Shown here piece by piece: positions 5,981-26,161 of a DNA stretch of 64,000 nt. The DNA lies in NCBI RefSeq assembly GCF_030704535.1, contig NC_081815.1:2743001-2807000 (forward strand), in the 5' to 3' direction. The stretch comes from Vitis vinifera (lineage: Eukaryota; Streptophyta; Magnoliopsida; Vitales; Vitaceae). A program made the translations under genes and the position numbers. The first letter of the stretch is position 1. Every line of letters begins with the position of its first letter. The notes below the pieces were generated by a model. It was given only the letters and a program-made list of their open reading frames with translations, was not told where the DNA came from and did not search any database.

Positions 5981-8269
5981 TTAATTCTCAGCTGACTTGC
6001 CTTCGGTCCGTGGCTCATCCCCTACTATTTTCTTCCAGATTGGGTGCTTGGACCAGAGGTAACATACCTCTTCAATTGGAACCTGCTTTGTTTCTGGCAG
6101 GAGGAAGTAAATGAAGCAGCTCATTATGATAATTAAGCCAGCAAAGACCAAGAAAATCCCATATCGGAGGTGACATAGAGACACCAGGAAACACTGAGCA
6201 ATGAGAGCTGTGAAGAAGAGATTGACACAGACCACCATACTCTGCCCAGCTGACCTGGTCTCCAAGGGGAAGAGCTCGCTAGGGACCAGCCACCCCAGAG
6301 GGCCCCAAGACCTTCCATAAGCCAACACAAAGAGAGAGATTATGATCACTAAGAAGTAGCTAGTTCCTTTGGGAAGCGTTTTTCCTTGTCCAAACTCCAG
6401 GGCCAGAGTAATGGCCACAGCCACCTGCGGATCAGACACCCAAGTAAATAATGCAACCGTACAGTTTGTTAGAAGAGAATCAGGGGAGGAAAACTAGAAT
6501 TCCACTTACCATATAGCATATCATTTCACAACCTGCCTCCAAAAAGAACTTTCTTCTACCCCACCTATCTACAAATGCCATTGATATTAATGAAGCAAGA
6601 ACCAGTGCTCCACTGGTTATTAGAGATGAATACAGAGATGCATTAGAACCGAAACCCAAGCTCTGAAATATCACAGGAGCATAGAAGAGAATGGAGTTCA
6701 TGCCAGTGAGCTGCTGAAAAGCTGGGATTCCCAAAGCCCCTATTATCAACTGGGGACGATTTCTTCGCTTCAGGAGGTTCCTGAACGGATGCTTTATGGC
6801 TTGTGCTGCTTTGCTCGCATCAACAAGATCAGCAAACTCGGCTTCAATTTTCGATGTTCCTCTGACTTTCTCCAATACCTTTCTTGCTTCTTCAAATTTG
6901 CCTTGCTCTACAAGACTGTTTGGGGTCTCAGGAAGAGCAAGACCCCCAAGAAACATTACAGTTGCAGGGACTGTGGCTAAACCAAGAGATAATCTCCAAC
7001 CCCATGGATGCAATTTATCAGTTTCATAATTTATAAAATTGGCTACTAAGATCCCTAAGCAGGTTGATAGTTGGAAAAGCTGGTTCACTGCTCCTCGGAT
7101 TTTAGCAGGTGACATTTCTGAAAGATACAGAGGAACCGCCTGTGGCATAAGAACAAGAGCACAGAAGCCAATGAGAAAGCTTCTATTAGCTTGCTTCCAA
7201 AGAAGGATTTAAAAAAGATTTTAGTCTGGGGGCGTTGAGCTTACCTGGTTACCAAATCCAATGCCTACCCCAAGGAGAATTCTTCCAATGATCAGCATAG
7301 CAATGTTCACTGCAGCAGCATTGAGGACTGCTCCTAAAAAGAAGCTAATGGACCCAACAAGTATTGAGGCTTTCCTGCCTTTTTTTCTGGTCACATGGGA
7401 AGCAGCAAAGGTGGAAACAAGGCCAGCAAAGTATAAAGAAGATGTGAAGAGTGTAAGGATCTGGCTCTCATATTTACAGTAATCTGTCTCTTTGAGATGT
7501 TCTTGCTTCCTCCTGTACACTTTTGGAAAGAAGCGCTTCAAGAAATCATCCATGGAAGTCACCCCACCTGGAACCAGGGTAGAAAGTCTGATCAGTTTTT
7601 GTTCTTAAACAAACCCCTTTATAAGTATTTGGTACTAGATAATGTGGGTCAAAGTCCTAATCTCCATTGATATGCAAAGAAAGAACAAATTCAACTGACA
7701 AAAGGATCCTGGTCACATCCAATAATACAGTGAGAGGAGGCAAGAAAAGTTAGGAAATTTATCTATAGAAACTGAAAGAGGAGTTTCTGAGAAGATCTCT
7801 GTTGTCTATTCAGAACATGAAAGTCATCTTTTCATGACTTTATTCTCAGAAAGAAGGGAGAGAAAAAAGAATCTTATTGTTCACTTCCCACCAAACAATA
7901 TGAATAAATCTCAGAAAATGCTTCTGTTTCTTCTCCTTTTTCACTTTCATTTACTTTGATACTTTCTGTTCTGCTTTTCATTTCTACCACTATTATCGGA
8001 TCAGGTTACAAAAATTGAGGTAAATCTCATTCCTAACACAACACATACCTAAAAAAAACCCAGATCAAACAGGAGGCCAAACTCCACAATTGAAGCAATA
8101 AAAAGGAATAAACAAAAAAAAACTCACCAGAAACACCAAGATCATATCCAAAAAGAGCTCCCCCAGAAGCTGCAACAATGCAAGAAAAGATGAAATAGCC
8201 TGTAATCTTATACTCATAGAGATGGGCCCTTTTTGCAGCCTCTGTATCCTCAAATGCACCGCCTGCCAT
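5981..8269 (-). CDS. STP14: Sugar transport protein 14-like hexose/H+ symporter
   Basis: Four exons on the minus strand, 8269-8128, 7567-7245, 7139-6510 and 6424-5981, join in frame to 512 residues (Arabidopsis STP14 is 504). This is a plasma-membrane MFS symporter of the STP family that imports monosaccharides with protons; STP14 is known as a galactose-type transporter. Visible motifs are the proton-site FGYDLG with Asp43, the helix-4 GRILLG arginine, the loop motif RKKGRK, PETPNSLVEQGK, the sugar-binding QQLTGMNSILFY, DRWGRR, GPLGWLVPSELFPLETR and PETKQVPIEE. Cys78 (DYCKYES) and the late LCHLRYG cysteine match the disulphide that holds the STP lid domain. The frame is intact and nothing in it suggests loss of function. 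The promoter has a TATA box about 100 bp upstream. The call over other STPs rests on near end-to-end similarity, including the MAGGA start. Confidence 0.93.
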
Positions 8270-12232: not shown

Positions 12233-12237
12233 ACATA

Positions 12238-12844
12238 TGTTAGATTAATTTTTGTAATTAATCTATAATTTGGGCCACACATGTAAATAATTAAAATGTG
12301 TGTGCTATCATTTAATTAAGCCTAAATATAGTGATCTAATTAATAATTGATTAATTGGCTTAAGGGTATAATTGTCATGAGATTATTGTGTAGATACCAT
12401 TAGACAATTATTATTTCTATGAGGGGCAGAAATATAATTGTGATAAAATTAAAACTGCCCTAGCAGTTTATAAATAGGGTTATGGTCCCCATTCTACGAC
12501 TACGCAATTCCAATTTCTGAAAATCCTCTCAAAGAGAAATTGACACAGAATCTAGTGGCTAGAATTGGAAGACCATCTCAAAGGGTTTTTTTTTCTATAA
12601 GGTTTCTCCTTCAATGGATTCAGGTATGCTTCCGCTATTATTTTTCTACTCATTGTTTTTTAATCAGGAGATTCCAATGTATATATAAATTAAGGTATTC
12701 ACCTTGTTAAATATTTCAGTACATATGTAGTTAGGGTATTCACCCTGTTAAATATTCCAGTACATATGTAGTTAGAGTATTCACCCAGTTAACTATTCCA
12801 GTATATATGAAATCAGGGTATTCATCTTGGTTGAATACATTACA
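12238..12844 (+). repeat. 5' LTR of the Copia element
   Basis: 607 bp, 41 bp shorter than the 3' LTR because it has one fewer copy of an internal 41-bp tandem unit (copies at 12692-12732, 12733-12773 and 12774-12814, then a partial copy). It contains a TATA box and, downstream of it, an ATG (12614) directly before a splice-donor-like CAG|GTATGC. Confidence 0.93.
12469..12476 (+). promoter_or_regulatory. LTR promoter TATA box
   Basis: TATAAATA within GCAGTTTATAAATAGGG, the natural U3/R boundary region of the LTR. The identical copy in the 3' LTR is at 18206-18213. Confidence 0.65.
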
Positions 12845-12846
12845 AG

Positions 12847-12858
12847 TGGTATCAGAGC
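12847..12858 (+). other. Primer-binding site for initiator tRNA-Met
   Basis: TGGTATCAGAGC begins two bases after the 5' LTR and is complementary to the 3' end of plant initiator tRNA-Met, the usual Copia minus-strand primer. Confidence 0.92.
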
Positions 12859-12947
12859 CTACTCCTTGATTAATTCTTTGAGTTATTATTTTAATATATA
12901 TATGTCAATGGATTAAGATTTATGAAATATTGAGTTGATAAATTTTT

Positions 12948-12963
12948 TATTATTATTATTACG

Positions 12964-12999
<36 letters not shown>

Positions 13000-13001
13000 G
13001 T
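12948..13001. repeat. (ATT)n microsatellite in the retrotransposon leader
   Basis: About 17 ATT units interrupted once by an ACG triplet, lying between the primer-binding site and Gag. It falls inside the proposed leader intron. Confidence 0.9.
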
Positions 13002-13428
13002 TATTTAATAGCATTTTATGATATTAATATTTAAGTTATTGATCTAGCATTTTTAAATAGGCTAATTAAAGCGGAAAATCACCAAAGTGACATCTTCCGT
13101 GTAGATTAGTCTGTTCGGGGTGTTAGATATTTGTGTGTATGTGATTCATGCGGGTATTGACTGGCCCAAAGGAAAGTTAATATTTGGTCAAATTGCATAC
13201 ATACTTGTGGTGATAAATATGTGATGATTATAAAGGTAACTTAATGTGAATAATAAATCAATCCAAAGATGGATTTATTATTTGACATAACTTATCATCA
13301 ATGTTTGATCACTACAACAAGAGTACCACTTACAGTTAATATTACTGTCCAAAGACTTGATATTAATGTTGTGCTAGGTATCTTGAAATGTCATAATTTG
13401 CTTTTAAATTTAAAGATTATGTGTTTAA

Positions 13429-16400
13429 TTGCTTATTTTATGTGAGCATGATGGTTTATTTGATTCATTTTATTTTGTTCTCGATTCAGCTTTTATATCA
13501 ACCACTTCTATATCTGCCAACATCAATAATGTCCCTATGTTAAATGGGACTAATTTTAAGGACTGGAAAGAGAATATGATGATTCTCTTAGGCTGCATGG
13601 ATATAGACTTAGCCTTGAGAATGCCCAAACCCGATGAACTCAATGAGCAAAGTACTCAAGAGGATGATGTTTATTGGGGTAAGTGGGAACGTTCAAATAG
13701 GCTAAGTCTTATGATCATGAAGCGCGGCATTCCAGAAGCTTTCAGGGGTGCGGTAACCGATGAGGTTACTAATGCCAGTGACTTCCTTGCGGAAATTCAG
13801 AAGCGTTTTGCCAAAAACGATAAGGCTGAAACGAGCACGCTTTTAGCAAGCTTGATTTCAATGAAGTATAAAGGCAAGGGTAATGTTCGGGAGTACATCA
13901 TGGAGATGTCTCATCTTGCTTCAAAACTTAAGGCTTTGAAACTCGAGTTATCTGATGATTTACTCGTGCATTTGGTTCTCATCTCTCTTCCTGCACAATT
14001 TAATCAATTCAAGGTCAGTTATAACTGTCAAAAGGATAAATGGACTCTTAATGAGCTTATTTCATTCTGTGTGCAAGAGGAAGAGAGATTGAAGCAAGAC
14101 AAGACCGAAAGTGCTCATCTGGCTAGCACTTCGAAGGATAAGGGCAAACGAAAGAATAAGGATAATAAGGTTGCTGCTTCTAATGGTCCAGAACAAAAGA
14201 AACAGAAAGTTGAGGTAACATGTTTCTTCTATAATAAGCCTGGACATACTAAGAAGGAATGTACCAAGTATGCTGCTTGGCGTGTTAAGAAAGGTATGTT
14301 TCTTACTTTGGTCTGTTCTGAAGTTAATTTAGCTTCAGTATCTAGAAACACATGGTGGTTAGATTCTGGTGCTACTACTCACATTTGTGTTTCTATGCAG
14401 GGTTGCCTGAGTTACCGAAAACCAAGTGATGCTGAAAGATGCATCTATGTCGGAGACGGTCAGTCGGTAGAAGTAGAGGCAATAGGGCACTTTAGATTAT
14501 TATTGAAATCTGGTTATTTTTTGGATTTAATAGATACTTTTATTGTACCGTCTTTTAGACGGAATTTAATTTCAGTTTCTGTTTTGGACAAATCAGGTTA
14601 TTGTTGTTCATTTGGAAACAATAAATTTACATTATCTATTAATTCAAATGCTGTAGGAACCGGTTTACTTAATGTTTATGATAATCTATATTTGTTGGAA
14701 ACTGTTCCGTCCTATAATGAAACCTTGCATGTGGAATCACGAGGTACAAAACGTAAATTGAATAAAGATAATTCGGCCTCATTGTGGCACAAACGCCTAG
14801 GTCATATCTCTAAATCTAGAGTTGAGCGACTTGTGTCCGATGGGATTTTGGATTCACTTGACTTTTCAGATTTTGATATTTGTGTTGAGTGTATTAAAGG
14901 AAAACAGACCAAAACAAAGAAATTAGGTGCCAATAGAGCTACAGACGTCTTAGAATTAATTCATACAGATATCTGTGGACCATACCCTACGGCATCTTGG
15001 AATGGTCAACAGTACTTTATAACATTCATAGACGACTACTCAAGATATGGCTACTTATTTCTTATACATGAGAAATCACAATCATTGGATGTGTTCAAAA
15101 CATTTAAAGTAGAAGTTGAGTTACAACTCAACAAAAGAATAAAGAGCGTCAGATCTGATCGTGGTGGTGAATACTATGGTAGATATGACGGATCAAGTGA
15201 ACAACATCCAGGACCATTTGCTAAATACCTAGAGGAATGTGGGATCGTCCCTCAATACACCATGCCAGGATCACCTAGCATGAATGGTGTAGCAGAAAGA
15301 CGAAACCGAACCCTTAAGGACATGGTAGGGAGTATGATTAGTCATTCTACTTTACCCGAAAAACTCTGGGGTGAAGCACTCAAAACGGCAGCTTATATCC
15401 TAAATCGGGTGCCAACTAAAGCAGCTGCTAAAACGCCTTATGAGCTTTGGACGGGTCGAAAGCCCAGTTTAAAGCATTTTCATATTTGGGGATGTCCAGC
15501 TGAAGCGAGACCTTATAAGCCTCATGAAAAGAAATTGGACTCTAAAACAGTTAGCAGCTACTTTATTGGCTATGCAGAGCGATCAAGGGGTTTTAAATTT
15601 TATGATCCTGCTATTAGGTCAATTTTTGAGACGGGAACTGCAACATTTTTTGAGGATGTTGAGTTTGGGGGGAGAAATCAGCCTAGGAATATTGTCTTTG
15701 AGGAGGAAGAGGGATCTACTATTGCTATTGATAATGTACAGGTTTCACTACCTATCATTGATCAAGAAGTAAATTTGGATCCTCAACCAACATACAATAT
15801 TGTTCAACCCTTAATTGCAAATGAGGACATTACTTCTGAAGAACAAACTCAACAACCTCAAGAAAATATGCCATTAAGGAGATCCACTAGAGAGAGGAGA
15901 AATGCAATTTCGGACGATTATATCGTATATCTCCAGGAACGTGAGGTAGAAAGTGGAATGATGGAAGATGATCCAATCAACTTCCAGCAAGCCATGAAAA
16001 GTTCCAACTCTCAGAAATGGATTGAAGCCATGAATGAAGAGTACAAATCTATGCAAGACAATAAAGTTTGGGAACTTGTCCCATTACCAGTTGGTACGAA
16101 ACCCATTGGTTGTAAATGGATATTTAAAACCAAGCGGGATTCAAATGGTAATGTAGAAAGATATAAAGCACGTCTTGTAGCTAAAGGCTTTACTCAAAAA
16201 GAAGGAATTGACTTCAAAGAGACCTTCTCTCCAGTTTCTACGAAGGACTCTTTCAGGATAATCATGGCACTAGTTGCACATTATGATCTCGAGTTACATC
16301 AAATGGATGTTAAAACAGCGTTTCTCAATGGTGACATTGATGAAACAATTTATATGGTACAACCAGAAAATTTTGTGTCCGAAGACTCAAAGAATATGGT

Positions 16401-17553
16401 TTGTAAATTAACTAAATCCATTTATGGGCTCAAGCAAACTTCTCGTCAGTGGTACTTCAAGTTTCATCAAATTATTGTCTCATATGGTTTTGAGGCAAAT
16501 CTTATGGATGAATGTGTGTATCACAAATTCAGTGGGAGTAAGTATATTTTCCTGGTTTTATATGTCGATGACATATTGCTAGCCACAAATGATATTGGCA
16601 TATTGCACGACACCAAGAGATTTTTATCAAAACATTTTGAGATGAAAGATCTTGGTGATGCCTCTTTTGTCTTAGGAATCCAGATACACCGAGATCGTTC
16701 TAGGGGTATTTTAGGATTGTCACAAAGGACCTATATTGATAAAGTCCTCCAAAGGTATGGCATGCAAAATAGCAAACCAGGTGATACCCCTGTCGCTAAA
16801 GGAGACAAATTCAGTCTTAATCAATGCCCTAAAAATAGTTTAGAAAGTCAAGAAATGCAGAAGATTCCTTACGCTTCGGCTGTGGGGAGTCTAATGTATG
16901 CTCAAGTATGTACACGTCCGGATATTGCGTACATTGTTGGCATGTTAGGCAGATATCTAAGTAACCCTGGAATGGATCATTGGAGAGCAGCCAAGAGGGT
17001 TATGAGATATTTACAGAGAACAAAAGAGTACATGCTTACATATAGGAGATTGGATCAGTTAGAGTTGATTGGGTATTCCGACTCCGACTTTGCTGGATGC
17101 CAAGACAGTAGAAGATCCACATCAGGCTATATTTATCTGTTGGCTGGTGGAGCAATTTCATGGAGGTCTGCCAAACAGACACTCGTAACTTCATCCACCA
17201 TGGAAGCAGAGTTTGTAGCATGTTATGAGGCATCCAATCAAGGAATATGGCTACGAAATTTTGTCACTGGGCTGCGTGTTCTGGATGGTATTGAAAGACC
17301 ACTGAAGATATTTTGTGACAATAAATCAGCAGTTTTATATTCCAATAACAACAGGAGTTCTACAAAATCAAAATACATTGATATCAAGTTCCTAATTGTA
17401 AAAGAAAAAGTACAGAGTGGACAGATATCCATAGAGCATATTGGAACAAACTCCATGATAGCGGATCCGCTTACAAAGGGATTACCACCCAAGGTCTTTC
17501 ATGAGCACACTGCTCATATGGGTGTTGTCTCATTTGAGGATATCCAAATTTAG
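13429..17553 (+). CDS. Copia Gag-Pol polyprotein
   Basis: An uninterrupted frame of about 1374 codons ends at TAG 17551-17553. It opens right after a TAA with TTG, and the first in-frame ATG is at 13537, inside conserved Gag sequence ([11 protein letters not shown]). The true start may be the LTR ATG at 12614, joined by splicing from 12623 to 13490 in the same frame. Domains in order (frame numbering): Gag UBN2 region; a CCHC knuckle near 265-278 whose second Cys is Tyr; protease WLDSGA near 310; integrase with an HHCC zinc site (LGHISKS, CVEC) and its Asp/Asp/Glu residues ([26 protein letters not shown]); reverse transcriptase with YVDD at 1045-1048; RNase H ([20 protein letters not shown]). 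No frameshift or internal stop is present. Confidence 0.95.
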
Positions 17554-17974
17554 TGGGAGTTTGTATTATTTATTGTATATTGCTCTATGTTATGTTTAGA
17601 CTTTATCTATACATTTGGATTGTGTTCTGCAGAAATAAAGTATTCATTTTATTGCACTCTGTTAAATTATGCTAAAGATTTGATCTCAGTAAAGTTAAGT
17701 TGGACCAGTTGGAAATAGGCATGAATAGATCACATTGCATGTAATTTCCATGCTATGCACTCATGATTGATCTATGTCATTTAGCTGTGCAGATATATGT
17801 GACCATTGATTGGTCTAGTAACAATTGATGTAACAAAGGCCACCTTGATCCTATGTCAGTATAGTTAATGGACGAGATTGTTCGGATATACCCTAAGGAC
17901 ATGATAGCAAATTTTGAGCTCATAAGGTTAAACACATTTATTTGATTACATATGCATGTGGCCCATTGGGAGAT
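17554..17974 (+). other. 3' non-coding segment and polypurine tract of the retrotransposon
   Basis: About 420 bp between the polyprotein stop and the 3' LTR. The purine-rich ATTGGGAGAT directly before the LTR (17965-17974) is the likely plus-strand primer site. No second reading frame is supported. Confidence 0.6.
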
Positions 17975-18622
17975 TGTTAGATTAATTTTTGTAATTAATC
18001 TATAATTTGGGCCACACATGTAAATAATTAAAATGTGTGTGCTATCATTTAATTAAGCCTAAATATAGTGATCTAATTAATAATTGATTAATTGGCTTAA
18101 GGGTATAATTGTCATGAGATTATTGTGTAGATACCATTAGACAATTATTATTTCTATGAGGGGCAGAAATATAATTGTGATAAAATTAAAACTGCCCTAG
18201 CAGTTTATAAATAGGGTTATGGTCCCCATTCTACGACTACGCAATTCCAATTTCTGAAAATCCTCTCAGAGAGAAATTGACACAGAATCTAGTGGCTAGA
18301 ATTGGAAGACCATCTCAAAGGGTTTTTTTTTCTATAAGGTTTCTCCTTCAATGGATTCAGGTATGCTTCCGCTATTATTTTTCTACTCATTGTTTTTTAA
18401 TCAGGAGATTCCAGTGTATATATAAATTAAGGTATTCACCTTGTTAAATATTTCAGTACATATGTAGTTAGGGTATTCACCCTGTTAAATATTCCAGTAC
18501 ATATGTAGTTAGGGTATTCACCCTATTAAATATTCCAGTACATATGTAGTTAGGGTATTCACCCAGTTAACTATTCCAGTATATATGAAATCAGGGTATT
18601 CATCTTGGTTGAATACTAAACA
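17975..18622 (+). repeat. 3' LTR of the Copia element
   Basis: 648 bp with four full 41-bp tandem units (18429-18469, 18470-18510, 18511-18551, 18552-18592) plus a partial one, against three in the 5' LTR. It keeps the TATA box (18206-18213) and the ATGGATTCAG|GTATGC donor (18351-18366). It ends about 340 bp before the likely NINJA leader-exon donor. Confidence 0.93.
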
Positions 18623-18627
18623 ACATA

Positions 18628-20083
18628 TCGAATAAGGGAGAAAACTTCTTTAACAGTGTTGATATAATTTAAAGTAGTGAATGTCCCTTTTGGACATGGA
18701 GCGGACGAGATCAGATGCCTTATTTTTTATTTTTTTCTAAAAATAAAGGGTTTGGATTTGGATGGGAGGGAAGGGCAAAAATGGCAAGAAAGAATATACA
18801 TGACAATCACATGCTCCAGCAAAAATAGAAAGAGAGAAAAAAAAAAGAAGCAAAACTGGAGCTAGGTTTTTAAACAATTGTTGGAGTCTCCCGCTAGTGA
18901 AACCCAAAATCCATTGATTTTCTTCATCTAGGGTTTCAAGTTTGATGTGCTCCGTTGATTCAGGTCTGTTTCTTTTGAGTTTCTTGAATTTGGGTTTGGT
19001 ACATGTTCTGTTTGTACTTTTTTTCTTTTTCTTTTTTTTCTTCCTCTTAATTAAATTCTGGGAGTTTTTTTGGTTCCATCAGTCTTTGAGCTTGCATGTG
19101 GGGATGGGCAGATCTGTGGGTTGCTTTTAATTGGTGGGCTTTGTGTGAATTTGATCGGCCCTCGTTTGGTTACTGAGAAACCGGAGGAAAAAAATGAAAA
19201 ACAAACGAAAATGTTGGCTCTTGCTCTTCTCTTGTGATTTTTTTTTTTTTTTTGCCTCGGGGAATTGAAAATTTTAGCTCACCCGATAAATAATTCTACT
19301 GAGATGGGGTTTCTTCTTGTTGGGTTCTAATTGATGGAAATTTGAAGATTTAATATTTCTGAGCTATCAAATGAGATTTTTCTTTGGTTTTCAGATCTAA
19401 TAAATTATGCAGGTGATTCTGAATGATCGATTTCTAGTTTGGTTATCTAGAACTATGTAATAAATCTGGGTTTGTATCTTAGGCATGAACCATTGTTGAA
19501 ATCTGATGAAAATGTTTAGAGCTTTGAATATTTACTAAAAATTCTTTCAATTTTTGAAGCTGTTTGAGGGCACGGTACTTCAGTGGGGGTAGATTTTTTA
19601 TTTTTTTATTTTTTTATTTGTGATGATCATCGGTAACTCCAGCCAATTAGAAAGCTTTAGCCAAGACCTCTATAATGTTTGTGCTTTTGTGTTTTTCTTG
19701 ATGCATTTGCTTTGTTAGAGACACTATGCACATCATACTGAAGACCATTTGTAATGGTGTCAATTAAGGAAGGAACCACCTGAGAACGGTGAGGTACCTA
19801 GGTTTTGATTGTGATTCCCTGCATTAATGTTATTTTCAAATGGATGTGTGATTATCATAATTGTTATCCTTTCCTTCATTTTTGTTTCATTGATTTTTTA
19901 GAATTGTCTGGCATGATGGCAAGTTAGTTTGGAACAAAACTTCCTTCTATTGTTTTCTGAAAAGAGATCAACTGCTGTGCAGGTGTCTATATTTGGGATA
20001 CCATCTTAGGATCACTGTTGTGAGGATTTGCACAAGAAAAGATGTTATGAGTGAAACTCATTGACAAATTTTGGTTCAGTAAA
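18628..20083 (+). promoter_or_regulatory. NINJA upstream region, 5' UTR exons and leader intron
   Basis: The likely first leader exon ends at a CAG|GTCTGT donor (18963|18964). The second begins after TGTGCAG at 19983 and runs into the start codon at 20084, giving a leader intron of about 1 kb. Exon limits are inferred from splice consensus only. The intron carries a CTCGTTTGGTTACTGAGAAA motif (about 19161-19180). Two overlapping mini-uORFs, 20042-20050 and 20047-20064, end 19 bases before the main ATG. The retrotransposon's 3' LTR directly abuts this region. Confidence 0.5.
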
Positions 20084-22485
20084 ATGGAAGATGAGAATGG
20101 ACTTGAGCTTAGCCTGGGTCTATCTTGTGGTGGATCCTCTATCAAATCAAAAGGTAAAAATGGTGTCCCATCGGATACCAGGGCAGAGGAAGTTGATAGG
20201 GGAAACACATTAACGGATGATTTCAAAAATTTCCTTAATCCTGGCACCCAGAAACAGGACTCAAGCACTGGTTCCCAGAGAAGTGATCCAGTGAAACCTC
20301 AGGAGAACTTCTTTAGCAACTTTCCAAAGGCTGCTGTTGAAGCAGATGCTTCCATGAACTTGAATGGGAGAGGACTTTGGGCTGCAAACAATAATAGGTC
20401 TCCTGAAGTTGAGGAAGAAAAAAGGCCAGAGTTAGGTAATAAACGTAAAATGTTATTTGATGAGGTAAACCATCAAAAGAAGCATGACAGAGAGGTGCAC
20501 CATGCTGATTTACACGAGAAGACAAAAACGTCACACATTTCCATAACAACTGAAGACGGTTCAACTGCTGAAAATGAAGATGTTGCGGAGTCTGAGGTTG
20601 ATGTTTCAACCTCAAGGCTGGCTTCACACCCTGATGATGGCTCCAAACGATTCGTTGGAGCTGGTGGCTCTTCTGAGGTCGCAAAGGAGGTTCATGGGGT
20701 TACTGATTCTAGTGCTGTAGACTTGCAAGGGCAAAAGAGGTTTAACTTTTCATCAGAAAATGAGTTCAAGCGGAACCTGGCCTATTGTGTTCCTTTCCCA
20801 GTCCAATCAGTAAATATCAATGTGCCTTATTCGTTACATGCAAAGGAGTCCAACCCTGTAGGTGCACCCGGCACATCAGGCTATTCATTACCAGGTATGA
20901 TGCAGGTAATGCCTCCTGCAAATAATGAGCGAGCAGGGATCCAGCCTGTGAACACTGGAAACCTTCCACTGATGTTTGGCTATTCACCTGTCCAGCTTCC
21001 AATGTTGGATAAGAACAATTCGTGGGGGGTGGCTTCTCATTCTCAACAGTTCCACCCTCCCTATGCTGGCAAGGGTCCACCAAACTCTGATAAACATAAT
21101 GATGGATTGAAGATATCTCAAGGTAATACTTTTCACCCTCCTAAAATTCTTTTTTGGGTATTACAAAAATATGGGTAAAATGCCAAAATTGCGGAGATAT
21201 GTTGGCTAAATATGCCATGCAATTCCAACCTTTTCTATTCACCACCACATGGAAAGCCCTTACCTATCCTCTACATTAACTGCAAAAAATGCTGATGCTA
21301 ACTGATTCACTCTTTTCCTATTGGAATTTTGTCCTCTGAACAAGGAAACTGTGATGTGTTTCCGGTTTTGACCTGGATTTGATATTTGCAAGTTTCAACT
21401 AGCTGTGGAATATCATCATTACACAATATGGTTGCATGTGACTCACATTTACAGTTTGTATTGATTTTCTGTATTGAAATATTAGAAAACACTAGTTATC
21501 TTATAGGCTATACAACTCTTAGAAGCTGTACAGATTTCCTGACTACTGATCTAAGTTGTTAGCTTTTTCTATATGGCCTATGCATTTTTTTTCCTTTTTC
21601 TTTTGTTCAGCATTTTAGTTGAGCCTTGTTGCAAATTAAGGTTTGTTAGTTAATTGTTCTCAAAAACAGTTTTCTCTTTGAGAATAAAAAACCAAAAAAT
21701 ATGTTTGACAACTAGAAAATAAAAAATAGTTTTCTATTTTTAGAAATAGAAAACATGGTGTTTCTTAGAACATATTTTAGTTGTTTTTACTAATTTTTAG
21801 AAGACTATTTTTAAAAGTATTTGAAAACTTAGAAAACAAGTTGAAAACATTTCAAGTTTCCAAATAGAATCTTGTTCTAAAAAACATCAAAGAACTTTTT
21901 TTGAAAATTATTCTTAAAAATTGTTTTTTAAAATGTTCCCAAACATATTCTATGTTTCCTTTCTTATCCTTTACCTCTTGTATGGATGTAGCTGCAGTGC
22001 AAGCAATTCCACATAATTCACCTGAAGCTTCACATTATGATGGGAGGGCATTAGAACTGACCAAAGGTGATGGGAAACAGCATCCCACAGAAGAGGGCTC
22101 CTCTTGTCAAACAGAAGATGATGTGAAGGGAAACAATGTGATCTTTAGGTCAAAGGATGGCACTGATCAAGCAATAACAGAAGTTTTCTCCTATGAAAGT
22201 TCAGCTATAAGACCTGGCATTGCTGCAGATATGAAATTCGGGGGATCTGGTTCCCACCCAAATCTACCATGGGTTTCCACAACAGGTTCAAATGGTAAGA
22301 CAATTTCTGGTGTTACCTATAGATATAGCAGAGACCAAATCAGGATTGTCTGTGCTTGTCATGGGTCTCACATGTCCCCCGAAGAGTTTGTTCAGCATGC
22401 TAGTGAAGAGCATGCCAATCCAGAGACTGGCACTGGTTTAGCACCATTTCCCAGTAGCAATCCTGCCACTTCAGCTCAAAGTTGA
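20084..22485 (+). CDS. NINJA: NINJA (Novel Interactor of JAZ), jasmonate-signalling adaptor
   Basis: Two coding exons, 20084-21122 and 21992-22485, give 510 residues (Arabidopsis NINJA is 425). NINJA is a nuclear adaptor linking JAZ repressors to the co-repressor TOPLESS. It opens with an EAR motif, LELSLGL (residues 7-13), the TOPLESS contact. A central region has NKRKMLFDE and the block GSTAENEDVAESEVDVS, then LPLMFGYSPVQLPMLDK. The C-terminal domain (about 437-490), LPWVSTTG followed by CACHGSHMSPEEFVQHASEE, is the JAZ/TIFY-binding part. I chose ATG 20084 because the frame upstream lacks an ATG and the family begins MEDENGLELSLGL. The second exon has two in-frame acceptors six bases apart (21992 or 21998), which would add or drop two alanines. 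AFP-type relatives are less likely, given the end-to-end NINJA match. Confidence 0.94.
21640..21960. repeat. AT-rich dispersed-repeat-like segment in the NINJA intron
   Basis: Alternating AGTTTTCT, GAAAACA and TTTTTAGAA blocks end at ATGTTCCCAAACAT, just before the acceptor. The style is that of a decayed MITE, but I could not define ends or a target duplication. Confidence 0.28.
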
Positions 22486-24754
22486 TTCCCTTGCAGCTAT
22501 GTTCAATGAGACCAATAAATGTTGACCTATCATGCAAGGAAGAAAACCTGGTTATCAGGCTATGTTATTTACACCAATCGTGAGATTTCTCGTCCCTTAT
22601 CTCATTGGAGATGCTAGGATGTTATCTTTGTATCAGTTGTCTTAGCGGCACTTTCTGCAATGAATATTGCAGGAGTACTTAGCAATGTATAAGCATCCTA
22701 GCTTAATAGTAATGTTAAGTGCTTCACTGCTACCAAGCCAGATGTAGAGGGCAATGCATGTTCTCTGTACAACTGATATAATTTAAAGTTCTTTTCCAAA
22801 GTTCTATCTTAGTTTTGCAGTGGATTGTAACTTATGCGGTGCAGGGGTAGGATCAGTATTGGGATTTCATGAAATGATTCCACTTTTATTTTGCACTCAT
22901 TTTGTCTATAACCCCTTGCCATATGTTGAATTTACACCTTTAGATGCTTGTAGAACACAATGGAGCCATTCAATCCAAATTCTTCTGCTTCAGCTGGGTG
23001 TCAGGAGGAGATAATAGCATTGCTTCCATTCAAGGCTTTACTCTGGTAAACATTATCCATGTGTAAGACCGGACTGAGCTAAAACTATTTTCTTTTGCTG
23101 TGCCATTAGGACCTCTAGCCTAGTGAGGCTTTCTTTTAAAAAGGAAATCAGAGAGAGAGAGCGAGGCAATCTTATAATATGGTAACAATCTGTTTTAGAG
23201 ATTAGATGTTCTGTTAATACAAAACAACACATTGAGGTGAATTGTGCCCCTTCACCACTGTGACTGTTTTTTCATTCACGGCCCAGCCAATTAAGATACA
23301 TTTCCACATAAGTTTTATGTGCTTGATACTAAGAGAATTTCTTTAACCTCATGCCACTTCCAATCCACCCATTTCTTGGGTTCATCTCAGATTTCAACCA
23401 GAACACCTCTCTAAGTGACCAGAATTGGACAATCACACCATTTTCCCTGGATTAATGTCACATACCTCTACTGTACGGCAGTATCATTGGCAGGCCTAAA
23501 CCTAATTTTTTAGTTTCTCATCGTTCATTGCTTTTGTTTTTAGGCCTTTGTTTTATTTGACCACAGGCACCTCTTGCTCCACTGTTCTAAATAAAATTTC
23601 CTTACTTTTTCATTGAGAAAAGGGTCAATGTTGGCTAGCTCTGAAACAATAAAACATGTTTAAGGCAGACAAAAATGCCTTGATCTTTGGTACTTCTTGG
23701 TCAAGCTAGCATGCATTATCTGTCATGCTTGTGTCACTTCGATTGACTATGTGGGCTCCTCCATACCCACGGTATCCTGCATGTGAATCCCGGAGAAACG
23801 CCCCGAAGATTGTGTGTATGTGTTTATTCCTTACAACTTGGTTCTCCTCAGATACATCGGCAAAGCATGGATCATATTCTACTCTTTCTAATAATAGCAG
23901 AATCTTCCCATCAAGGAAATTGCATGGCAACCTCCCTACCACATACAGCCTCATGGTTCTTCGATGTCTTCTGACTTTTTCCCTTTCAGTTTAATATGAA
24001 AATGAAAATCAAGCTTGCAGTGTTTGACAAGTTTTCAGGGTTTACCCGGTCGACTTCGTATTAACAACTCATTAATTCTATCCAATAGAAAAATGCAAAT
24101 AACTTCAGAGAACTTTGACTTGGGTAATTTCTAGCTCAGATGAGCTGAATTTGAGTTTGGGCCATACCCAGATTGTGAACCAACCCCATGACTTCTGGGT
24201 TTTCTAAGAAACTCGTGGTGCTGCTAAATTTGACTTTCCATTTATTATTTTTATTCACAAATACTACTGAATTTCAAAGATAAACATGGCCAGGTGAATC
24301 ATTAACAACCAGGAACAAAGAAAAGCAAAGTCATACAAGAAAGGAAGAAAAGACAGGATTGAATAACAGACAACTTCTGAATGGATGGAGGTATAAACTG
24401 TGTGAAGTTTCACCACAATAAATAGGGTTTTAAATGGGTCAGTTTAGGTAGTTTGTCTCACTGTGGGTGGCGTCACCGCTGGACAGAACCCTTTAATTTA
24501 GTAGTATAGATGATATCATGTGCTTTTTCTTTATAATGTGGGATTTGCTACCCTGTTAAATGTCTTCCAAGCCAAGTCAAATATGTACACAGTTATAAGC
24601 ATCTCCACCTTTCCATCACTACTGAATTCCACATTTTTAAAGCCTACCCTACAAAATAAAAATGATTTTCTCTAGTTTGGACACACAAGAACAGCCTAAG
24701 AAGAAACCGATAAAAGCGGCAAACCAGACAGGAGTAGTCTCTGGGGAGTGGGCA
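22486..24754. other. Spacer between NINJA and ATL42
   Basis: NINJA 3' UTR followed by unique-looking DNA and the ATL42 promoter. Open frames of 60-90 codons here show no conserved motif, codon bias or splice context that would support a gene. Confidence 0.55.
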
Positions 24755-24762
24755 TATATATT
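24755..24762 (+). promoter_or_regulatory. TATA box of the ATL42-like gene
   Basis: TATATATT within GGGCATATATATTAAAAGG, about 130 bp upstream of the start codon at 24890. It would place transcription start near 24785-24795, upstream of both uORFs. Confidence 0.5.
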
Positions 24763-24821
24763 AAAAGGTCCATGCATAGCAGAACCATATCAAACTGCTA
24801 TGCCCTTTTGACAAGTTTTAC

Positions 24822-24893
24822 ATGTCTTGGTGGAATGCTTGTCGGGTAAGCGTGGAATTCTGGGCAAGTCTCGAGCTTCTGTCTTGGCGATGA
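24822..24893 (+). other. 23-codon uORF whose stop overlaps the ATL42 start
   Basis: ATG at 24822 is read in a frame different from ATL42 and ends at TGA 24891-24893, sharing the ATGA tetranucleotide with the main start at 24890. A shorter uORF (ATG CCC TTT TGA) lies at 24800-24811. Whether either is in the mRNA depends on the unmapped transcription start. Confidence 0.45.
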
Positions 24894-26161
24894 ATCGGTG
24901 GAGTTCGATTATCTGGTTTCTGCTTTCTGGGTTATTGTTCAATGTTGAATCACAGGCTGCCCCAGGACAGGAGAACTTCTCTTCACAAGATGCTGTTACT
25001 GCTTTTAAACCAAGCCTTGCTGTGGTGATTGGAATCCTGGCTGTGATGTTTTTGTTAACATTTATTCTTCTTGTGTATGCAAAACTCTGTCACAGGGCGT
25101 CGAACAGTGATCGGGAAAATCAGCAGGGGCTTACCAGATCAGAGTCTCGGTTTTCTGGAATCGACAAAACTGTAATTGAGTCACTTCCTTTCTTCAGATT
25201 CTGTTCGCTTAAAGGGTCAAAGGAAGGGCTTGAATGTGCAGTCTGCCTATCAAAATTTGAAGACATAGAAATTCTCAGGCTGTTGCCTAAGTGCAAACAT
25301 GCCTTCCACATTGACTGTGTTGATCAGTGGCTTGAGAAGCATTCAAGCTGCCCTCTTTGTAGGCACAAGGTCAGCGCCGAGGACCTTGCAATCTTAACGT
25401 ATTCGAATAGTTTGAGGTTCTTATGGAACCAGTCTGAGCTAAGAGAGAACTCAAATTTGGAGCTCTTTGTTCAAAGAGAGGAAGATCATCATGGGTCTTC
25501 CAGGTTCAGCATTGGAAGCAGCTTTAGGAAGGTTGAAAAGGGTGTGAAGGAAGAAGAATCAGTACTAATCCAAGAAGAAGAAGATGATAATGATGATGAA
25601 AAAATCTTGCACAAAATCAATCACAAGATTATTGTATCCGATGTTGTCCTCAAGAACAGATGGAGCAGTGTGAGCTCTTCAGACTTGATGTATCTGAATT
25701 CAGAACTGGTTCATGCCATGTCAAGCGATAGATTTGCTTCTTTGGATTCAAACAACTCCGCAATGGGAAGACCAATTGAGGACTGGGAAGTCATGAAGAT
25801 CAAGGAGGAAATAGAGAGGAAGAGAATTTTCGAAAGCAGGGTCAGTAGAATCAACCATAGCAACCCAGTTTCATCTTCAGGCCTTCCTTCTACTTCAAAA
25901 ACTGAAGCAAACTCAGGTCATGCTTCACGCTTCTTGCATCCCACCGAAAAGAGATCAATGTCAGAGATCACAGCTTGTTCAAGATACGCAGATTTCAGTA
26001 CAAAGAATAGAATTAGGGAGTCTTCTTTAGCTCAAAATAACATAAAGGAGGAGAGAATGAGGCGGCTTTGGTTGCCAATTGCAAGAAGAACAGTTGAATG
26101 GTTTGCCAATAGAGAAGGGTCTCAACAGTCTCAAAACACAAAACAGGCACCAGATGTATGA
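24890..26161 (+). CDS. ATL42: ATL42-like RING-H2 E3 ubiquitin ligase
   Basis: A single exon of 423 residues, as is usual for ATL genes. The first ATG in frame (24890) gives a cleavable signal peptide (about 1-22). A transmembrane helix at about 42-66 (LAVVIGILAVMFLLTFILL) follows, then the GLD-type box FSGIDKTVIESLPFF, then the RING-H2 domain at 116-157 with all eight zinc ligands (ECAVCLSKFED, CKHAFHIDC, CPLCR) and the E2-contact DQWLE. ATL proteins are membrane-anchored E3 ligases that pass ubiquitin from an E2 to substrates. The long C-terminal half is Ser-rich with an acidic EEEDDNDDE run and ends with RRLWLPIARRTVEWFANRE, which Arabidopsis ATL42 shares. This makes ATL42 (paralogue ATL12) a better call than a generic ATL. 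The substrate is unknown. Confidence 0.92.
   Translation: MNRWSSIIWFLLSGLLFNVESQAAPGQENFSSQDAVTAFKPSLAVVIGILAVMFLLTFILLVYAKLCHRASNSDRENQQGLTRSESRFSGIDKTVIESLPFFRFCSLKGSKEGLECAVCLSKFEDIEILRLLPKCKHAFHIDCVDQWLEKHSSCPLCRHKVSAEDLAILTYSNSLRFLWNQSELRENSNLELFVQREEDHHGSSRFSIGSSFRKVEKGVKEEESVLIQEEEDDNDDEKILHKINHKIIVSDVVLKNRWSSVSSSDLMYLNSELVHAMSSDRFASLDSNNSAMGRPIEDWEVMKIKEEIERKRIFESRVSRINHSNPVSSSGLPSTSKTEANSGHASRFLHPTEKRSMSEITACSRYADFSTKNRIRESSLAQNNIKEERMRRLWLPIARRTVEWFANREGSQQSQNTKQAPDV

Follow-up and report, generated by a model that had tools for sequence, protein, structure and literature searches.

The 64,000 nucleotides of Vitis vinifera DNA analysed here (contig NC_081815.1, positions 2,743,001 to 2,807,000 of the forward strand; the window) contain a single intact-looking Ty1/copia retrotransposon with long terminal repeats (LTRs), at 12238-18622, and this text concerns where translation of its Gag-Pol polyprotein starts. 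The element is assigned to the Ty1/copia class by its LTRs, its primer-binding site (PBS), a target duplication, and gag and integrase ahead of reverse transcriptase (RT) in a single frame, in which Pfam domains follow the order Retrotran_gag_2, gag_pre-integrs, rve and then RVT_2. The LTRs measure 607 bp (5') and 648 bp (3') and differ by 6 mismatches over 607 aligned positions; the 41 bp by which the 3' LTR is longer are one extra unit of an array of 41-bp tandem units in U5 (12649-12886 and 18386-18664). The open frame runs from 13429 to 17553 (1374 codons) directly after a TAA at 13426-13428, and its first in-frame ATG lies at 13537. An earlier reading of the sequence (the original prediction) had described this ATG-less opening and had proposed that Gag-Pol starts inside the 5' LTR and is joined by splicing. 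That the start codon of Gag-Pol is supplied from the LTR by way of a leader intron now appears highly probable, because the arrangement is conserved in three families, the G at donor position +5 is invariant in the second of them, coding constraint extends upstream of 13537, other Copia lineages look different, and one genomic copy matches the predicted junction. The features are listed below.

12233-12237, no strand: target-site duplication ACATA, left
12238-12844, plus strand: 5' LTR (TGTTA...TTACA), 607 bp
12469-12476, plus strand: TATA box TATAAATA, putative function
12614-12623, plus strand: coding mini-exon ATG GAT TCA G in the LTR (Met-Asp-Ser and the first base of codon 4), predicted Gag-Pol start
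12624-12629, plus strand: predicted 5' splice site GTATGC, from U1 duplex rank and conservation
12624-13489, plus strand: predicted intron of 866 nt with the remainder of the LTR, the PBS and the leader, including 22 of 24 upstream ATGs; putatively spliced out
12847-12859, plus strand: PBS TGGTATCAGAGCC, which we take to match the initiator methionine tRNA
13470-13489, plus strand: pyrimidine-rich tract and predicted 3' splice site, ending in TTCTCGATTCAG; from acceptor rank and an AG kept in sister copies
13490-17550, stop codon 17551-17553, plus strand: predicted exon 2, Gag-Pol (Gag, gag-pre-integrase, integrase and RT by Pfam)
13537-13539, plus strand: where the unspliced frame has its first in-frame ATG; 16 of 17 family-2 loci inspected have Val here
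17975-18622, plus strand: 3' LTR, 648 bp; the mini-exon recurs in it at 18351-18360
18623-18627, no strand: target-site duplication ACATA, right

The predicted intron is bounded by ATGGATTCAG at 12614-12623, followed by GTATGC, and by an acceptor TGTTCTCGATTCAG followed by CT, whose AG occupies 13488-13489. Position 12623 together with 13490-13491 makes up one codon, and reading continues from 13492 in the polyprotein frame. The 866 nt removed include the PBS and an (ATT)n run, and GATTCAG is present at both junctions; in all these details the original prediction was accurate. In the regions scored there are 62 GTs and 58 AGs; the donor at 12624 has the best U1 duplex energy of the former, and the acceptor ranks first of the latter in pyrimidine content. 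T makes up 41.7% of the intron and GC 26.9%, whereas exon 2 has 28.3% T and 41.3% GC over its first 300 nt. The transcription start was assumed to be near 12500, from the TATA box at 12469; given this start, no ATG of the RNA would precede that in the LTR, and the stretch 12500-13536 contains 24 ATGs. The configuration of leader-AUG donation, of the type in the P4 mRNA of rice tungro bacilliform virus (RTBV), is found here, with the start assumed and the splicing predicted: the first leader AUG is followed by a donor, and its frame fits the open reading frame (ORF) past the acceptor. The flanks of the intron also resemble one another, both at 12614-12623 and 13480-13489 of the window and at the corresponding sites of families 2 and 3 (ATGGATTCAG compared with CTCGATTCAG, CTGGATTCAG and ATGAATTCAG); this likeness may be a trace of intron origin, of template switching, or chance.

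In the mechanism proposed from these features, transcription would start just upstream of the mini-exon, so that the first ATG of the RNA would be that of ATG-GAT-TCA-G, with the 5' splice site directly after it. The leader intron would extend from within the LTR across the PBS and the ATG-rich leader to directly before Gag. Its removal would fuse the mini-exon in frame to Gag, yielding Met-Asp-Ser-Ala..., and would make the Gag-Pol ATG the first ATG of the messenger RNA. Unspliced RNA would retain the PBS and serve as the copied genome, with its first Gag ATG (13537) behind 24 upstream ATGs. Spliced RNA for translation and unspliced RNA for copying would thus be separated.

Conservation of the predicted mini-exon, donor and Gag start

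All comparisons were made inside one genome (495.6 Mb, 21 contigs) and among related copies whose counts are not independent, which counts against the splicing reading. A Gag protein search gave at least 150 scored matches; among the matches listed, 58 were 94-100% and 92 were 57-67% identical. A second query, taken from locus L065, brought out a third family, whose identity to that of the window is 53-55%. Family 1 (the window family) was found at no fewer than 40 places by a gag-side search, and 39 of them besides the window were fetched (L009-L047); families 2 and 3, whose Gag is 53-67% identical to that of family 1, were represented by 26 and 12 loci, 38 in all. No relatives of the element were found in the viral-contig and genome-contig collections that were searched.

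The original prediction had suggested aligning the family to see whether the LTR ATG, donor and acceptor are conserved in all copies. They are retained in most copies but not in every one: the LTR, present in 38 of 39 fetched copies (L044 is without it), keeps its ATG in 37/38 and the donor GT in 33/38, the misses being L018, deleted over the mini-exon, L022 (CT), L025 (GC), and L036 and L040 (AT); the acceptor AG is kept in 38/39 (AA in L028). Between the preceding in-frame stop and 13537, none of the 39 copies has an in-frame ATG. Family-1 copies are 98-100% alike over the 261-base gag-side query, so their conservation says little alone. L068, one of two further family-1 loci, retains the mini-exon and a GT. 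Elsewhere in the genome, and outside these family-1 counts, an LTR at C3:14697149-14697174 carries ATGGATTCAG followed by GTAAGT as donor.

For the more distant families the search was confined to 60-260 nt ahead of the PBS, an interval that does not depend on the motif; 30 of the 38 loci have a usable PBS. The motif ATGGATTCAGGT (up to 2 mismatches) was found there in 25 of the 30, a number reached by 0 of 200 permuted motifs (mean 0.165, maximum 5). A motif-free anchor for exon 1 was followed next by ATG-N7-GT in 37 of 42 family-1 segments (shuffles 0.85) and in 20 of 22 family-2 segments (shuffles average 1.26); of the two family-2 misses, L065 has a false anchor and L092 has ATA. The letters after the ATG vary (GATTCAG, GAATCAG, GAATTAG, GACTTAG, GACTCGG and others), so that the codons drift at constant length. 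L052 has a frame of 1372 codons and no 5' LTR was found for it; the element there begins at the PBS, about 1177 nt before Gag.

Flanks of 80 nt were compared in 15 pairs of six representatives. The 12-nt block is 0.83-1.0 identical between the window and the five family-2 and family-3 representatives, a similarity circular by itself because the loci were picked by the motif, and the flanks of the window stay near shuffle level against all five (highest L065 downstream, 0.69 vs 0.62 ± 0.03). More weight is given to the PBS-anchored motif, the exon-1 anchor and the donor positions than to this block. Some flanks exceed shuffle level slightly when family 2 is set against family 3 (L051-L065 upstream, 0.66 vs 0.59; L065-L057 downstream, 0.69 vs 0.62). 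Within family 2, the 80 nt upstream of the block are 0.78-0.82 alike, whereas the 80 nt downstream are 0.60-0.64 alike, near shuffles, in five of six pairs, the exception being L051-L062 at 0.76. This drop in similarity is a boundary at the end of the proposed exon.

The donor itself shows the pattern expected of a splice site. Family-2 donors have +1 G, +2 T and +5 G in 20/20 each, with +4 being G in 12, T in 3, A in 3 and C in 2, and +6 being T in 16 and A in 4; among eight family-3 loci, 6 have G at +1, all 8 have T at +2 and 7 have G at +5. These loci were picked by a motif reaching +3, which favours +1 and +2 by choice but not +4 to +6. The family-2 count covers 20 of 26 loci: L052, L058, L063, L064 and L089 are without the LTR motif in the fetched stretch, and L050 was left out with its 5' LTR cut at the donor. 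The family-3 count covers 8 of 12, with L074, L078, L080 and L084 left out; L074 reads ATGAATTCGAG and has lost the donor. Were the LTR ATG just the opening of a short ORF, donor positions +2 and +5 would fall on third codon positions and be free to vary, and the fifth codon would read Trp, Leu, Arg, stop, Ser or Met. An invariant +5 G beside a variable +4 is what pairing with U1 demands, and it therefore suggests a splice-site rather than a codon pattern. In 8 of 14 representatives the donor has the best U1 duplex energy of the GTs scored, and in 13 of 14 it is among the best six.

The coding side was compared in the same way. Gag residues ahead of 13537 are conserved between families (the window stretch against SISANVNNIPV and YSNINNITM), and family 2 has Val at the position of the 13537 Met in 16 of 17 loci inspected, L063 having Met. 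Based on these conserved residues and the family-2 Val, translation most likely starts upstream of 13537. All 27 rows labelled family 2 (among them L080, probably mislabelled) and 10 of 11 of family 3 have a fitting frame at the acceptor boundary, a count partly built in since the boundary was located by exon-2 alignment. A contrast set was formed by 20 Gag loci of other Copia lineages of the same genome, picked from at least 150 scored matches mainly for long frames and including several near-duplicates. An in-frame ATG lies beside or before Gag in 19 of the 20, and 0 ATGs lie between PBS and Gag start in the 12 loci where a PBS was found; the leader of the window has 17 and those of seven family-2 and family-3 loci have 22-50. 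The sampled leaders of other Copia lineages are short and ATG-free, and the window lineage is the opposite. The arrangement of LTR mini-exon and leader intron may, we infer, be ancestral to the three families of this genome.

Candidate genomic copies of the predicted junction

A family-2 junction probe matched one place in the genome, C11:10696439-10696469, a reversed control giving 0 matches, and a second junction probe with ambiguity codes found the same place only. In this locus (L095, C11:10693500-10703400; LTR stretches at 2584-2954 and 7499-7975) the 5' LTR can be followed from its first base over U3 and R to the end of the mini-exon ATGGACTTAG, where it passes straight into Gag CATCTTC. 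The join is exactly the predicted junction, and the U5 end, the PBS and the leader are all absent. The 3' LTR continues past the mini-exon and has another context (GCGCATAATGGATTCAG followed by GTTGG). Such a structure would arise if a spliced RNA were copied after the first strand transfer, the second transfer proceeding via the shared R and exon 1. Since the LTR ends differ, two parent RNAs are indicated, and L095 is perhaps the product of both, one of them spliced.

Alternatively, the similarity of the flanks at both sites (ATGGACTTAG and ATGAATTCAG) could have let a template jump or a deletion produce L095. The mini-exon letters of L095 are intact to the last base, and had the lost leader been of the TTCAG type, this would leave little homology for jumping. 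L095 is accordingly taken as support for splicing, not as proof. A 5' LTR that stops exactly at ATGGATTCAG, the same donor, was seen in L050, about 1224 nt before Gag; it is joined to a CAG just past the PBS (CAG/GTTCC), which may be a second acceptor or CAGGTT microhomology, the same two readings as for L095.

Counter-evidence and alternative explanations

Besides the possible jump in L095, several results weigh against splicing of the leader. The family-1 junction probe gave 17 matches (up to 3 mismatches), none of them a junction and all read as the leader acceptor (TTCTGGATTCAG and similar), and the single match of the family-3 probe was an unspliced LTR with donor GTAAGT and no junction. 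Only 3 of 7 family-3 segments have ATG-N7-GT after the anchor (shuffles 0.26). Family-2 and family-3 acceptors are mediocre, ranking 5-26 by pyrimidine count with none in L061; the AG is retained in 19 of 27 rows labelled family 2, leaving 8 without it, and in 8 of 11 of family 3. Furthermore, the original prediction had named related copies with an ATG beside Gag as evidence that would speak against it, and such copies exist. Of the 27 rows labelled family 2, 21 have a local in-frame ATG of the ATGAATTCAG type that overlaps with the acceptor; in family 1, the copy at C3:856761-856785 has gained one at the acceptor by a single substitution (TTATGGATTCAG), and L067 has gained in-frame ATGs via an indel. 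The objection holds in part only, for family 2 retains the LTR mini-exon and donor, and LTR ATG, GT, local ATG and AG occur all together in 12 of 20 loci.

Because both sets are present in those 12 loci, both starts may serve in family 2. The proposal, compatible with a leader intron, is that splicing is the older route and that a second start, MNSA... beside MDSA..., became usable on unspliced RNA; it is a real possibility, although clearly short of an even chance. That one substitution sufficed in the family-1 copy at C3:856785 fits an easily gained local start. On the other side, the local ATG comes after 30-32 leader ATGs in L051 and L055, both family-2 loci counted that have it. L056, L059 and L060 are without the local ATG and retain mini-exon and donor.

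Ribosome shunting, as in plant pararetroviruses, would make the LTR ATG a short upstream ORF (uORF) on unspliced RNA, with the structured leader jumped and Gag begun at a non-AUG codon near the acceptor. The leader is indeed long and ATG-rich, window positions 12500-13489 fold better than 20/20 shuffles (z -4.9), which also tells against splicing, and, when unspliced, the LTR ATG of the window and of 14 representatives opens short ORFs (4-24 codons); RTBV shunts with an AUU start, according to excerpts of PMC5902531. Yet the uORF peptide is unconserved past its first four residues whereas donor +2 T and +5 G are conserved, shunting accounts neither for a length of exactly 10 nt nor for the frame shared with the acceptor, and a strong leader fold may equally serve packaging, so that this explanation seems very unlikely. 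Almost equally unlikely, by our estimate, is a plain local start (13537 in family 1, ATGAATTCAG in family 2) with the LTR motif a relic or regulatory uORF: the 13537 ATG is kept in 39/39 family-1 copies and the local ATG is frequent in family 2, but the former stands behind the two dozen upstream ATGs and is replaced by Val in family 2 while the residues before it are conserved, and the latter is absent from 39/39 family-1 copies and from 10 of 11 family-3 rows, beside an LTR donor invariant in family 2.

Spliced retroelements and a proposed sorting of RNA

Parts of the proposed arrangement have precedents. The Gag start codon of yeast Ty1 lies within the 5' LTR, as is predicted in the window, but Ty1 is without an intron and its LTR codons continue straight into Gag. 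The env mRNA of avian leukosis virus receives its first codons across a splice; its donor lies in gag, outside the LTR, whereas the predicted donor of the window element lies in the LTR and would serve Gag-Pol.

The published comparisons that follow are drawn from excerpts of the papers cited. In BARE1, a Copia element of barley, a spliced and capped RNA is translated while separate RNAs are copied; its intron of 104 nt lies at the gag end and stops Pol expression, and its start codon is local (PMC3735527). The likeness to BARE-1 drawn in the original prediction therefore stands for a spliced Copia RNA and fails for the place of the intron, since the predicted intron of the window element lies in the leader, supplies the start codon and leaves Gag-Pol whole. 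Splicing likewise parts a well-translated RNA (shGAG) from full-length RNA in EVADE/EVD, an Arabidopsis Copia element (PMC8892269; review PMC12786077), but its intron lies downstream of the Gag start and yields a short Gag RNA, the full-length RNA retaining Gag-Pol coding. In the P4 mRNA of RTBV a leader short ORF with a donor is spliced to a distant ORF and enables its translation (PMC5902531); RTBV is, however, a pararetrovirus, uses this fusion for ORF IV only, and reaches its first long ORF by shunting. L095, as proposed, resembles the SpIREs of human L1, genomic copies of spliced element RNA (PMC5860796), although L1 is a non-LTR element. In grapevine, Copia families are known whose untranslated leaders vary; Noble, for example, has a long variable leader that starts with the same PBS (PMC2576258). 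The excerpts of that paper discuss neither a start codon nor a leader intron for these families, and the likeness to the window family is by description only. RNA reads from Copia families are present in grapevine callus data, although a convincing full-length transcript of Copia-23 was not found in that study (PMC9097378).

A splice-donated start, spliced Copia RNAs and an LTR start are thus each known, and no plant Copia element with a leader intron and its start codon in the LTR was recognised in the literature searched (a partial search, mostly open-access). Since the combination with a PBS-holding leader intron from the LTR was not found there, the arrangement in the window may be a new variation among spliced Copia elements.

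For the window family, a further proposal is made tentatively, at somewhat less than an even chance: splicing would be an obligatory sorting switch, in which translatable RNA would have no PBS and copyable RNA no usable Gag-Pol start. The proteins would act in trans on unspliced RNA, spliced RNA would re-enter the genome rarely, as in L095 of family 2, and each LTR would combine a promoter with a coding first exon ending in a phase-1 donor. The 3' LTR of the window, with TATA box, ATG and donor around its mini-exon, lies upstream of same-strand frames at 20051-26161, which start about 1.4 kb beyond the LTR end and contain TDBD and RING by Pfam; this LTR is a possible coding first exon for the neighbour.

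It has long been asked how a single RNA of an LTR element can serve as messenger as well as genome. If the proposed arrangement is true, both fates of the RNA would hang on one splicing choice that is measurable at a single junction, gene finders would miss the real Gag start in the window lineage, and LTR copies could serve neighbouring genes as coding first exons.

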